Origin: Clostridia bacterium
GTDB lineage: Bacteria; Bacillota; Clostridia; Oscillospirales; Acutalibacteraceae
Direction: 5' to 3'
DNA length: 64,000 nt
Assembly (NCBI GenBank): GCA_017516965.1
Contig: JAFXAP010000008.1
Span: 124,001-188,000, forward strand
Position numbers and translations under genes: made by a program
In this document: one piece after another, positions 16,997 to 61,449 of the stretch
How positions within the stretch are numbered: position 1 is the stretch's first letter
Layout of the letters: each line of letters opens with the position of its first letter
The notes under the pieces: model-generated
The model's database searches: none
The model's input: the letters and a program-made list of their open reading frames with translations, nothing else
Told to the model about the DNA's origin: nothing

Positions 16997-17025
16997 TTGA
17001 CAAACCGCGACCCGTTGTATATAAT
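16997..17025 (+). promoter_or_regulatory. Perfect consensus promoter of rplJL
   Basis: TTGACA, 17-base spacer and TATAAT, all consensus bases, immediately after the SpoIID-like gene and 150 bases before rplJ. Confidence 0.93.
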
Positions 17026-17035
17026 AGTCAAGCAA

Positions 17036-17095
17036 TCCAAAGACAGTAGGTGGCATTTGCCGTAAGTTTTACGCCTACCGAGGTGAGCGTGAATA
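17036..17095 (+). promoter_or_regulatory. L10 leader (ribosomal protein L10 autoregulatory element)
   Basis: The leader has the L10-leader hallmarks: a GTAGG/CCTAC helix (17046-17050 with 17074-17078) directly followed by CGAGGTGAGCG, the kink-turn element bound by the L10(L12)4 complex. Placement between a strong promoter and rplJ is the classical one. Excess L10-L12 binds it and lowers expression. Confidence 0.88.
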
Positions 17096-17116
17096 ATTTT
17101 AATTTTAAATTTTTCA

Positions 17117-17154
17117 TGTCTGCCCTTGTGTCCTTGGGTGGACATTTTTATTTT
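17117..17154 (+). terminator. Attenuator in the rplJ leader
   Basis: TGTCTGCCC pairs with GGGTGGACA (two G-U pairs, loop TTGTGTCCTT) and is followed by TTTTTATTTT. It lies between the L10-binding element and the rplJ ribosome site, so L10 binding probably controls premature termination here. Confidence 0.8.
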
Positions 17155-17173
17155 CACTCGGAGGTGAAACACA

Positions 17174-18116: not shown

Positions 18117-18137
18117 TTTAAGCTTACATCAAAACTT

Positions 18138-18165
18138 AAAACCCCGACCAAATTGGTCGGGGTTT
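18138..18165 (+). terminator. Intrinsic terminator of rplJL
   Basis: A perfect GC-rich palindrome (AAACCCCGACCAA / TTGGTCGGGGTTT) followed by TGTTTT closes the ribosomal operon. Confidence 0.93.
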
Positions 18166-18327
18166 TGTTTTATAAAAAAATAAAAAAGGCTGTTTTGCGC
18201 AAAATCAAAACAACCAACAAAAATATTGCAACATAAATTTTATTTATCGTCAATAAAATTTTGAATATCAAAAATAATTTCTCCGTTTAGCATAATTTCA
18301 CGCTTTTAAGTTTATAAATTATGCGAA

Positions 18328-18356
18328 TTGAAACGGTGGTTATTTTATGATATATT
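18328..18356 (+). promoter_or_regulatory. Promoter of the ~400 nt RNA
   Basis: TTGAAA, a 17-base spacer and TATATT. Transcription should begin near 18363. It is the only good promoter in the 190 bases after the rplL terminator. Confidence 0.6.
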
Positions 18357-18362
18357 AAAGAC

Positions 18363-18766
18363 ACAGAGAAAGAGAGGGTGATACCCGATGTTCCGGTAAA
18401 ATACTCTTAAAACTTAAAATAAAGTTTCAGGCAAAACTCAAATTTTCAACTACAATAAAATCCTGATATTTACAAAAAATAATAATTAAAAAATACATAG
18501 CCTGAAATTAAATTTAAGAATTAAGAGTTTTACATAAAAGCAGTCCTTGCAAGAAAACTTTGATCCTCAAAAGAAGCTCGCTTTACGAGATATAGTGGTT
18601 AATAAATCACACAAATGAGGAAAATAGAAAGATTGAATGTTAAGGACAAATTTGAGAAAAGAGAGGTACAACAAAAAGATGTTAGATATCAAGAGTGAAC
18701 AAAAATAGCTCTTGACCGAGGAAAACCGTGTAAAGAAACGGTCGGTCAAGGGCTATTTTGTTTTTT
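18363..18766 (+). ncRNA. Candidate structured noncoding RNA, about 400 nt, family not recognised
   Basis: The 680-base gap between rplL and nadE holds no convincing gene but has a promoter, nested long-range complementarity and a terminator. Helices seen: GGGT/ACCC (18376-18386), ACTCTTAA (18403) with TTAAGAGT (18521), CTTAAA (18413) with TTTAAG (18513), TTTCAGGC (18425) with GCCTGAAA (18500), GTCCTT (18543) with AAGGAC (18642), CCTCA (18565) with TGAGG (18616), CTCG/CGAG (18577-18589) and GTGGTT-AATA-AATCAC (18595-18610). The end is the 12-bp terminator stem 18707-18754. The helices nest without conflict: one long arm of three collinear helices, then a multi-branched domain. I see no RNase P (GAGGAAAGUC), tmRNA or SRP RNA signatures. 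It could instead be a long leader of nadE, but two terminators and a separate nadE promoter argue for an independent RNA. Confidence 0.62.
18707..18766 (+). terminator. Intrinsic terminator of the ~400 nt RNA
   Basis: AGCTCTTGACCG pairs with CGGTCAAGGGCT (one G-U), with an inner ACCGT/ACGGT hairpin, followed by ATTTTGTTTTTT. A competing hairpin, TCAAGAG (18689) with CTCTTGA (18709), uses the same 5' strand. Confidence 0.85.
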
Positions 18767-18777
18767 CGCTTTTTGCG

Positions 18778-18799
18778 TCGCCTTATGGGCGATTTTTTT
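18778..18799 (+). terminator. Second terminator upstream of nadE
   Basis: TCGCC-TTATG-GGCGA followed by seven T residues, 12 bases after the first T-run. It acts as back-up and insulates nadE. Confidence 0.7.
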
Positions 18800-18810
18800 A
18801 TTTTTAAAAG

Positions 18811-18838
18811 TTGCTTTTACGCTTATTTATGATATAAT
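18811..18838 (+). promoter_or_regulatory. Promoter of nadE-luxS
   Basis: TTGCTT, 16-base spacer and TATAAT, ending 22 bases before the nadE ATG. Confidence 0.65.
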
Positions 18839-18860
18839 ATCTTTAAAAGGCGGTGACTGT

Positions 18861-19601
18861 ATGTTTAACGCAGTAAAGATTAAAAATGAATGTGTAGATT
18901 GGATTAGAGATTTTTTTGATAAAAACGGCAAAGACTGTAACGCCATTATAGGTATTTCAGGCGGCAAAGACAGTTCGGTTGCGGCGGCTCTTTGCGTAGA
19001 GGCTTTGGGCGCTGACCGAGTTATAGGTGTGCTTATGCCGCAAGGCACACAGCACGATATTGATATGGCTTATAAATTAGTAAACCATCTCGGTATTAAG
19101 CATTATGAAATAAACGTTAAGGACGCTATTGAAGCCGTACTTAAAAATATGCCCGAAAGCCTTAACGTTTCGGTGCAATCAAAGGTTAATCTTCCCCCAA
19201 GGATTAGAATGTCGGTGCTTTATGCAGTAAGTCAATCGCTTAACGGCAGAGTGGTAAACACCTGCAATTTGTCAGAAGACTGGGTTGGTTATTCTACCCG
19301 TTACGGTGACGCGGCAGGCGACTTTTCTCCAATGGCTAACCTCACCGTTACCGAAGTAAAGGAAATCGGTCGAGTATTGGGTCTACCTGACTGCTTGGTT
19401 GACAAGGTGCCAATAGATGGTCTTTGCGGTAAGACCGACGAAGAAAACCTGGGCTTTACCTATGCCGAGCTTGACGTTTATATCCGCACAGGCAAAATAG
19501 ACGACCCTAAAAAGAAATCACTTATAGATATGAAGCATAAACTTAACCTGTTTAAGCTACAACTTATGCCCACCTTTAAACCGGAGATAGACTATGAATA
19601 A
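18861..19601 (+). CDS. nadE: NAD+ synthetase, ammonia-dependent
   Basis: The 246-residue enzyme amidates deamido-NAD to NAD in the last biosynthetic step. The ATP-pyrophosphatase P-loop IIGISGGKDSSVAAALC is at about residue 29, and NLSEDWVGYSTRYGDAAGDFSPMANLTVTEV is the adenylate/deamido-NAD site. There is no glutaminase (nitrilase) domain, so it uses free ammonia. The ATG follows AAGGCGGTGACTGT. The end overlaps luxS by 8 bases. Nicotinate phosphoribosyltransferase, an earlier step of the same pathway, is encoded 13 kb away in another operon. Confidence 0.96.
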   Translation: MFNAVKIKNECVDWIRDFFDKNGKDCNAIIGISGGKDSSVAAALCVEALGADRVIGVLMPQGTQHDIDMAYKLVNHLGIKHYEINVKDAIEAVLKNMPESLNVSVQSKVNLPPRIRMSVLYAVSQSLNGRVVNTCNLSEDWVGYSTRYGDAAGDFSPMANLTVTEVKEIGRVLGLPDCLVDKVPIDGLCGKTDEENLGFTYAELDVYIRTGKIDDPKKKSLIDMKHKLNLFKLQLMPTFKPEIDYE

Positions 19602-20058
19602 AATAGAAAGCTTTAAGATAAACCACTTGACACTTGATCCCGGTCTTTATGTTTCGCGTCGCGACAAAAACGGCGACTGCACAGTTACCACATTTGACCT
19701 GCGAATCACCGCGCCAAACCGCGAACCTGTTATAGATGTGCCTGCGCTTCACACCATAGAGCATTTGTGCGCAACATATCTGCGCAACAGCGACCAAAAA
19801 GATAACGTTGTCTATTTTGGACCTATGGGTTGCAGAACGGGTTGCTACCTCGTTATGTTTGGCAATTTAAAAAGCCAAGACGTTTATGATTTAGTAATTG
19901 ATATGTGTGATTTTGTAATAAACTTTGAAGGCGACATTCCGGGTGCTAGTCCAATTGAATGTGGCAATTACTCAGAGCAAAATCTTAATATGGCAAAGTA
20001 TTATATAAAAAAATATAAAAACGATTTAATACAAAACAAAAATTTTGAATATATTTAA
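19594..20058 (+). CDS. luxS: S-ribosylhomocysteine lyase LuxS
   Basis: The 154-residue metalloenzyme cleaves S-ribosylhomocysteine to homocysteine and DPD, the precursor of autoinducer-2. The Fe/Zn ligands are visible in HTIEH and in IECGNY, and the catalytic Cys in FGPMGCRTGCYL. The N-terminal DHT-type motif is replaced by NHLTLDPGLY, within family variation. Its start overlaps the nadE stop region, so the two are translated from one message. No methyl-cycle partner gene is adjacent. A strong terminator follows. Confidence 0.97.
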   Translation: MNKIESFKINHLTLDPGLYVSRRDKNGDCTVTTFDLRITAPNREPVIDVPALHTIEHLCATYLRNSDQKDNVVYFGPMGCRTGCYLVMFGNLKSQDVYDLVIDMCDFVINFEGDIPGASPIECGNYSEQNLNMAKYYIKKYKNDLIQNKNFEYI

Positions 20059-40868: not shown

Positions 40869-41139
40869 AGACTTCGTCCATAAAACAGGACGAAGTCTGA
40901 AAAAACTCAGCTCCGCGGTACCACCCGCATTTTCGCTCAAAGAGCAAACACTCTCCGCAGTCTGTAACGGAACTGCACACCCGTTGTCGCTTAAAAGAAG
41001 CAAAATTCGTTAGGCGACACTGCTCAAAAGGGAACTTCACATTGCGGTAAAATAGGCGGCTTACAGCCTGAGACCACCCTCTCTTAAAGTTACGTGCAAC
41101 GCTACTTTTCTTTATCAACGCATTTATATTCAAATTAAT
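40869..41139 (-). promoter_or_regulatory. Phenylalanine T-box riboswitch of pheST
   Basis: On the minus strand the leader has all T-box parts: the AGAGAGGGTGG stem I base and the specifier region reading GTGAAG-TTC-CC (the Phe codon TTC at 41032-41034), the T-box sequence GGGTGGTACCGCGG (complement of 40913-40926) and a terminator (AGACTTCGTCC / GGACGAAGTCT, 40869-40898) followed by TTTTTG. Uncharged tRNA-Phe pairs with the specifier and T-box bulge and prevents termination, turning on pheST. Confidence 0.93.
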
Positions 41140-61372: not shown

Positions 61373-61449
61373 TGGCGCGCCGAAGAGGATTCGAACCCAT
61401 GACCTTCTGGTCCGTAGCCAGACGCTCTATCCAACTGAGCTACCGGCGC
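61373..61449 (-). tRNA. tRNA-Arg (anticodon ACG)
   Basis: A complete cloverleaf on the minus strand: acceptor GCGCCGG with TCGGCGC (one G-U), D arm GCTC…GAGC, anticodon stem TCTGG/CCAGA around loop CTACGGA (anticodon ACG, wobble-edited to ICG by TadA in bacteria), T arm with GGTTCGAATCC-type loop, discriminator G and encoded CCA. It reads CGN-type arginine codons. Confidence 0.95.

Follow-up and report, generated by a model that had tools for sequence, protein, structure and literature searches.

The stretch of DNA analyzed here, the window, is 64,000 nucleotides long and comes from a Clostridia bacterium (GCA_017516965.1, contig JAFXAP010000008.1). A preliminary description of the window pointed to an unrecognized structured RNA at 18363-18766 on the forward strand, flanked by rplL and nadE, and both flanks are named likewise by Pfam (rplL, L7/L12, before; nadE, NAD synthase, after). 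A locus of this kind raises the question of what the gene makes: a non-coding RNA, a leader of the gene that follows, a messenger for a very small peptide, or an RNA that depends on the ribosome for its function. We approached this question through the anatomy of the locus, its relatives, and the way in which its parts evolve.

An RNA gene with its own promoter and terminator

The promoter proposed earlier, TTGAAA-17-TATATT, was found at 18328-18356 and is conserved in relatives. Promoter-like sites alone occur at about the frequency expected by chance (9 found vs 7.0 expected). The upstream promoter box is kept ∼50 bp 5′ of the −35 element in members of many families. The promoter of 18363-18766 is sigma-A-like, and we infer that transcription starts near 18363. 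At the 3′ end, a 12-bp terminator with a T-run had been described; the terminator and the T-run are present, but the helix is longer, with an 18-nt arm (18702-18719 with 18742-18759, 94% complementary). Two short ORFs, at 18388-18399 and 18679-18708, had been missed. The features of the locus, all on the + strand, are listed below.

18278..18298, +, upstream conserved promoter box, TTTCTCCGTTTAGCATAATTT (commonest family form approximately TTTCTGCGTTTTGCATAAA), present in members of many families
18310..18333, +, second conserved promoter box, continuing into the −35 element (TTGAAA, 18328-18333), conserved in relatives
18351..18356, +, −10 box TATATT; the spacer of 17 is also found in relatives
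18363-18766, +, RNA gene, promoter to terminator
18366..18379, +, SD1, purine-rich putative ribosome binding site of the 5′ micro-ORF; conserved element, predicted from the 16S duplex
18376..18386, +, mini hairpin GGG-UGAUA-CCC before the first AUG; predicted fold, relatives usually keep GG..CC while the loop varies
18388..18399, +, ORF1, ATG TTC CGG TAA (Met-Phe-Arg-stop); 5′ micro-ORF, conserved element
18395..18534, +, arm 1, three collinear helices; alone z −5.0, 0/200 shuffles as good
18543..18647, +, domain 2, closing helix GTCCTT/AAGGAC and two inner hairpins; predicted fold
18577..18589, +, hairpin CTCG-CTTTA-CGAG, read directly from the sequence
18655..18667, +, SD2, AGAAAAGAGAGGT; a near-invariant GAAAGAGAGG-type site in the family
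18679..18708, +, ORF2, MLDIKSEQK-stop, TAG at 18706-18708; an ORF at this place in 93/93 strong members
18702..18766, +, intrinsic terminator, loop GTGTAAAGAAAC at 18728-18739 and T-run to 18766; its 5′ strand (18702-18719) holds the end of ORF2 and the stop codon

The minimum-energy fold of 18363-18766 has a predicted energy of −90.7 kcal/mol (z −6.47, 0/100 shuffles as good) and contains all three collinear helices previously assigned to the long arm. The strongest-folding part is the terminator alone (z −8.4, 0/200 shuffles as good); the second domain alone (18535-18654) is weaker (z −2.8, 1/200 shuffles as good). The reverse strand of the RNA region also folds well (z −4.8) and, therefore, folding energy alone cannot pick the strand. 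A kissing-loop pairing could form between CUUUAC (18581-18586) and GUAAAG in the terminator loop (18730-18735); this unproven pairing fits most genus members, is broken in L007/L070, and is not evident in other families.

When 10 genus members were folded domain by domain, arm 1 and domain 2 kept the same outline with different base pairs, a covariation judged from single folds without a statistical test, with L010/L035 (no arm 1) omitted and the divergent L072 omitted in one of two comparisons. The long arm is variable among relatives and absent in L010, and within the family RNA conservation is lowest in the structured body. It is highest in the promoter, in both Shine-Dalgarno/ORF elements, and in the terminator.

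Other elements were observed in the window. A terminator-like hairpin follows rplL (18137-18167, T-rich tail on the + strand), an L10 leader RNA (RF00557, 71.4 bits) lies before rplJ at 17019-17159 (+), as expected, and LuxS is encoded at 19594-20058 (+, 187 bits), its start overlapping the end of nadE. A T-box leader (40883-41127, −, 115.4 bits) and a tRNA gene (61376-61449, −, 58.9 bits) were also located.

Comparison with known RNA families

The Rfam scan proposed in the preliminary description was run, and no known family was found at the RNA. With cmscan against Rfam 15, the region 18363-18766 returned no family at gathering scores. The larger region 18120-18870 gave 42 matches up to E 10, none at its gathering score, and in 20 other family members no match at the RNA exceeded a gathering score. 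The stated lack of likeness to RNase P, tmRNA, SRP, and 6S RNA agrees with their absence from these 42 matches. Together with the z score of −6.5, the intrinsic terminator, and the homologs described below, this bears out the reading as an unrecognized stand-alone structured RNA. The suggested kinship with the ornate OLE, ROOL, and GOLLD RNAs did not hold up. The resemblance lies in being structured and multi-branched, but none of these RNAs matches even at E 10, the family has a median length of 359 nt, and its best-conserved parts are not the ornate arm, the structured body being the part that is kept least.

As described in the portion of PMC11706538 consulted, the raiA motif RNA (ModT) is a stand-alone structured RNA of Clostridia that has a sigma-A promoter and an intrinsic terminator and acts in trans. 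The window RNA resembles it in the first three respects, but gives no match to the raiA model even at E 10, carries conserved short ORFs of its own, and belongs to a family seen within Clostridia only.

Three further identities were considered and rejected. A tmRNA is not indicated, as RF00023 is not among the Rfam matches up to E 10 at the window RNA. Replacement of tmRNA by the RNA is likewise not supported, since 7 of the 11 strongly RNA-bearing genus genomes (G004, G011, G019, G024, G033, G035, and G038) have a tmRNA over the cut-off; the other four (G000, G009, G453, and G455) have none over it. An Hfq-dependent small RNA is not supported, as Hfq was found in 0/70 genomes of the genus, the scope of that search.

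The literature consulted, partly as titles and abstracts, held no paper with MLDIKSEQK or MLDIKSE and no title or abstract on such an RNA. The supplementary candidates of PMC8040213, in the part consulted a survey with thousands of structured RNA candidates, lie outside this comparison, and overlap with them is possible. Based on these comparisons, the RNA appears to represent an undescribed family without an Rfam 15 match, whereas RNA genes with ORFs as such are already known.

A patchy family among Clostridia

A blastn search of the window's own genome and 98 relatives found homologs in 9 of the 98 (E 6.8e-9 or better). In their alignment the 3′ 116 nt stood out as conserved, and a covariance model, R1, was built on this part from 10 sequences, ORF included. 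Because the training sequences carry the ORF, R1 matches lean toward ORF-like sequence. At E ≤ 0.01, R1 matched 71/394 genomes of the order, in 36/168 genera and 11 families, the window's own family included. Within the genus of the window, 13/70 genomes had matches, 11 of them strong; the two weak ones (G456 and G059) are not among the matches read. In the class, 20/391 genomes matched, 19 from other orders, and in a phylum sample of 299 genomes R1 matched the window's own genome only. On reading the weaker matches, those of G433, G617, and G756 proved to be chance, which leaves 70 genomes of the order itself and 17 of other orders. The family accordingly spans 18 bacterial families of Clostridia in the sampled genomes, the 11 of the order and 7 more (f55 was dropped, as its sole match reads as chance), and by these searches it appears to be found only in Clostridia. 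It is patchy: of the 70 genus genomes, 11 have strong matches. A single genome can hold up to 4 distinct copies (G311), and tandem pairs lie roughly 450-610 bp apart.

A pattern scan of named genomes found at least 119 stretches; among the 80 matches listed, 78 were R1 matches at E 1e-4. Of these 80, 79 carry MAG titles and one is a metagenome bin; Oscillospiraceae, Ruminococcaceae, Clostridia, and similar metagenome assemblies appear in the titles. That members are almost all MAG records would explain why the family was missed. Since the letters that the pattern permitted at the core codons were mainly synonymous, these loci were kept out of the codon tests.

R1 gave 101 matches, with L034 and L050 (inside L085 and L087) kept out, and removal of 17 matches antisense to a real one left 84. 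By a loose score 74 of the 84 have a promoter, a few of them doubtful; by a strict pattern plus the 5′ element 63 do. Near copies of L088 (L089, L090, and L092) were left out of the alignment. In the 63 strict-promoter members, the RNA measures 233-582 nt between its estimated start and the end of the R1 match. From 5′ to 3′, it is organized as two promoter boxes, a start region with ORF1 that commonly reads GAAAGG-GG(N)CC-ATG, a variable structured body, SD2, ORF2, and the terminator.

Variants of the inner parts were noted as well. A subtype with a conserved inner element, approximately CACGRCGGTG..ACG...ATATA and often with TTCGCCTTTTG further on, comprises L287-L290, L037, L040, L041, L049, L100, and L116, and an inner-element subtype with ACGACGG comprises L286, L292, and L294. 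The 5′ region of L036 has three tandem versions of the GG..CC element, two of them with ATG.

A sequence-only model of the promoter and 5′ element, R2, was built from 44 of the 63 strict-promoter members. Among the matches listed from 30 genomes, those of 42 bits or more coincide with R1 places, except for G326:C34 and G139:C42, and the next score is 32 bits. The two exceptions, the latter at a contig end, look like further or cut-off copies of the family. Since R2 has no strong sites away from the family, the promoter element, of the sigma-A type, is private to this RNA gene. A shared regulon marked by the promoter boxes was rejected, as no other strong R2 sites were present among the matches listed from these 30 genomes.

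ORF2 evolves like coding sequence

The reading of the RNA as non-coding is probably wrong, because the 3′ ORF evolves like coding sequence. An ORF was found at this place in 84/84 R1 matches read in the order and genus and, with nine from other orders, in 93/93 strong members; in 90 of these it is 9-10 codons long. The typical peptide is M(x)LD[I/T/N/F]K...K-stop, in which D and K are kept in 93/93, L in 92/93, and the final K in 74/93. Among the 78 distinct ORF sequences of the strong set, 27/28 codon variants at these residues are synonymous (L 15/16, D 3/3, and K 9/9), compared to an expected synonymous share of single random changes of 22% for L and 11% each for D and K. The stops are TAA in 41, TGA in 37, and TAG in 15 members.

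R1 was trained on sequences that carry the ORF, and likeness to R1 defined the strong set; we therefore also read the weaker set, the 34 remaining sense-strand R1 matches of the order and class. Here, a Shine-Dalgarno sequence and an ORF are present in 30/34, with 29 ORFs of 6-13 codons; in L320 the ORF2 stop has turned into a sense codon. The other four (G433, G752:C32, G756, and G617) are chance terminators with neither element. R2 matches 26/34 at E 0.001. The LDxK-type core is kept in 18 weaker members, and in 12 others the core is related to it or different (LEPA, IEPK, LAEPK, LSEPK, SDPK, KLQID, and LDTI). In both sets together, with L320 left out, 52/76 variants are synonymous (L 26/35, D 4/14, and K 22/27) vs ∼12 expected; the remaining ten D-codon variants encode E in every case, and two of these come from rows in the wrong register (L308 and L316). 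The coding signal of ORF2 survives inclusion of the weaker set, with a peptide core that is looser than the strong set suggests. Subtypes with a LEPA, IEPK, AEPK, or SEPK core are L307, L312, L315, L317-L319, L331, and L333, some of which apparently start at TTG.

The Shine-Dalgarno sequence of ORF2 is strong. The median duplex energy of SD2 with the 16S tail is −13.4 vs −9.15 kcal/mol for 190 control genes taken at their best start, and 8% of the controls are stronger. The window's own SD2 scored −8.3 kcal/mol over a stretch that cut off part of the site. In ensemble folds of 63 members, 54 have a stretch from SD2 to codon 5 that is less paired than the body; SD2 itself is only about half open (0.49), and the last ORF2 codons and the stop are almost invariably paired (mean unpaired 0.06). 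A helix drawn by RNAalifold within ORF2 is less convincing, with 90.5% of cells paired and two of five pairs departing by unpaired cells only. Taken together, the codon variants and SD2 indicate that the RNA is very probably translated via ORF2.

Two identities for the peptide were set aside. A type I toxin-antitoxin system was rejected as, by reading, the ORF2 peptides (MLDIKSEQK and variants) are hydrophilic and not hydrophobic toxins. A decoy of seryl-tRNA synthetase (SerRS) was considered because the SerRS of 7 genomes starts MLDIK, MLDLK, MLDIR, or MIDIK, similar to ORF2; the likeness was treated as coincidence, since it extends over only about five residues and the position that follows is N, F, or P in other members. 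As a separate observation, the sole RNase P class B-type match of G000 (L032, G000:C9:16930-17245) is weak, 42 bits vs a cut-off of 97, and lies <1 kb upstream of serS (L299, G000:C9:17901).

The stop codon of ORF2 lies within the terminator helix

The preliminary description had proposed a search for homologs and for compensatory changes, and both were found. In 90 aligned sequences, 15/16 pairs of the terminator helix are changed on both sides and 99% of cells are paired. For the R1 structure as a whole, pairing is 96.6% and falls to 36-51% when the partners are shifted by 1-3 columns. The stop codon of ORF2 forms pairs 5-7 of this 16-pair helix (alignment A6). It is in register in 88/90 rows and has a perfect Watson-Crick partner in 75 of the 88, as UAA/UUA (35), UGA/UCA (30), or UAG/CUA (10). 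Single folds made without the model agree, with all three stop letters paired to the 3′ side in 84/93 strong members (79 perfect Watson-Crick) and paired in 28/30 weaker members (24 perfect). As swaps of the stop are matched by changes of its partner, the stop and the helix are both kept when either changes. Stop-codon swaps with compensating base changes are an unusually clean sign of coding and structural selection on one stretch. The position of the stop codon in the terminator stem could also be a mere effect of the compactness of a short RNA.

The 5′ micro-ORF

ORF1 is 2-4 codons long in 53/63 members, compared to 101/453 (22%) of other ATGs in the same regions, and 7-13 codons long in the other 10. 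It most often encodes Met-Tyr-Arg or Met-Phe-Arg, with no conserved second residue. In the window, the predicted duplex of SD1 with the 16S tail has −16.1 kcal/mol over a 27-nt stretch. In the family the value is −13.0 kcal/mol, in an unfair comparison of 27-nt stretches with 19-nt controls; as the SD1 stretches are longer than the controls, only the SD2 comparison is fair.

Gene neighborhoods

The neighbors of the 84 matches (up to three ORFs per side) fall into 253 clusters, the largest with 9 members, and no conserved target or partner gene was found. Downstream, the first ORF has the same orientation as the RNA in 37 cases and the opposite orientation in 40, and nadE is closely downstream in several genus members and not in others. 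A random downstream strand without shared neighbors favors a product that acts in trans over a leader. The private promoter and the varied neighbors likewise suggest that the family RNA probably acts in trans.

Discussion

It is highly likely, in our judgment, that the locus belongs to a new RNA family with a coding ORF2. The explanation that we prefer, at slightly less than even weight, is a ribosome-engaged regulatory RNA in which translation of ORF2 opens the 3′ hairpin. A private sigma-A-type promoter would make a stand-alone RNA of about 230-580 nt, and ribosomes would load at the 5′ micro-ORF (2-4 codons) and at the 3′ ORF (9-10 codons, strong Shine-Dalgarno). Because the ORF2 stop lies inside the terminator helix, a ribosome finishing ORF2 would have to melt the 5′ strand of that helix, so ORF2 translation and an intact 3′ hairpin would exclude each other while the ribosome is present. 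On the nascent RNA, ORF2 translation would hinder termination; on the finished RNA, it would expose the 3′ end. Ribosome traffic would then set the termination or stability of the RNA, and the RNA, the peptide (typically M(x)LDxK...K), or both may act elsewhere in the cell. Double selection on the stop codon and the helix is what a coupling of ribosome and hairpin predicts. That the RNA operates as a ribosome-gated switch is a more tentative proposition.

The alternatives are given in falling order of belief. The first, which we regard as unlikely, is a minimal mRNA whose 9-10-residue peptide is the effector and whose structured 5′ part is merely a translational leader. The coding-type evolution of ORF2, the strong SD2, and the variable 5′ arms fit such an mRNA. 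Yet only the LDxK-type core and the final K (74/93) are well kept in the peptide, the core is altered in 12/34 weaker members, and a peptide alone fails to explain a stop codon double-coded with the terminator, the conserved promoter, and the 5′ micro-ORF.

Phage minigenes can sequester tRNAs or ribosomes at initiation, and a similar sponge, with two strong starts and very short ORFs, would agree with the strong Shine-Dalgarno sequences and with the 2-4 codons of ORF1 in 53/63 members. We consider a ribosome or tRNA sponge distinctly improbable here, as the amino acids of ORF2 are selected, which a sponge does not need.

A non-coding, trans-acting small RNA with an incidental ORF2 is less probable again. 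In its favor, the nucleotides of the ORF2 region are strongly conserved within the genus, and trans-acting structured RNAs such as ModT exist in Clostridia (PMC11706538, in the portion consulted). It has against it the excess of synonymous variants, the stop codons that interchange at a fixed place, and the lack of Hfq in 70 genus genomes, where other chaperones are possible.

An RNA of a small mobile or selfish element seems very unlikely: although there are up to 4 copies (G311), tandem pairs, and varied neighbors, no protein partner is shared, and blastn of the RNA against 50,697 phage records gave no match. Twelve pattern matches on viral contigs were rejected as members, since their best E in the R1 scan is 0.3 and, by eye, ordinary coding sequence continues through them; they are not the RNA. 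Least probable of all is a cis-acting leader, a peptide-controlled attenuator of the next gene like antibiotic-responsive leaders, which has in its favor the short 5′ ORF and the terminator overlapping an ORF that are typical of attenuators and the closeness of nadE here and in several genus members, and is disfavored by the 37 vs 40 strand count and by neighbor clusters of at most 9 among 253.

Dual-function small RNAs such as RNAIII, SgrS, and SR1 are RNA genes that also bear a translated ORF. The RNA described here would share with them a small RNA gene with a putatively translated ORF, and differs in that the ORF has 9-10 codons and ends in the terminator, a second ORF has 2-4 codons, and Hfq was not found in the 70 genus genomes. 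Leader-peptide attenuators and uORF sensors, such as TopAI-YjhQ in the part of PMC12121999 consulted, resemble it in the short 5′ ORF near the start and in a terminator that a ribosome could block, and differ in that here no downstream gene is conserved and the strand of the next ORF is random. An ORF overlapping the terminator was found in 88/90 aligned members, and a conserved same-strand downstream gene was not found. By analogy, the RNA seems to come closest to the dual-function small RNAs, with a 3′ end of the leader-peptide kind, without the downstream gene, and with base-pairing targets that are hypothetical.

ORFs of 9-10 codons are below the reporting size of the usual gene finders; as they escape them, more such RNAs may be hidden. 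If the switch that belongs to our preferred explanation, the ribosome-engaged RNA, is real, the family would be a stand-alone translation sensor and not the leader of another gene. It is possible, although we rate this broader claim as rather unlikely, that the family represents a new class of stand-alone ribosome-gated RNA, in which a single passage of a ribosome would decide termination, survival, or action, and which would serve largely uncultured gut Clostridia as a translation sensor acting in trans.
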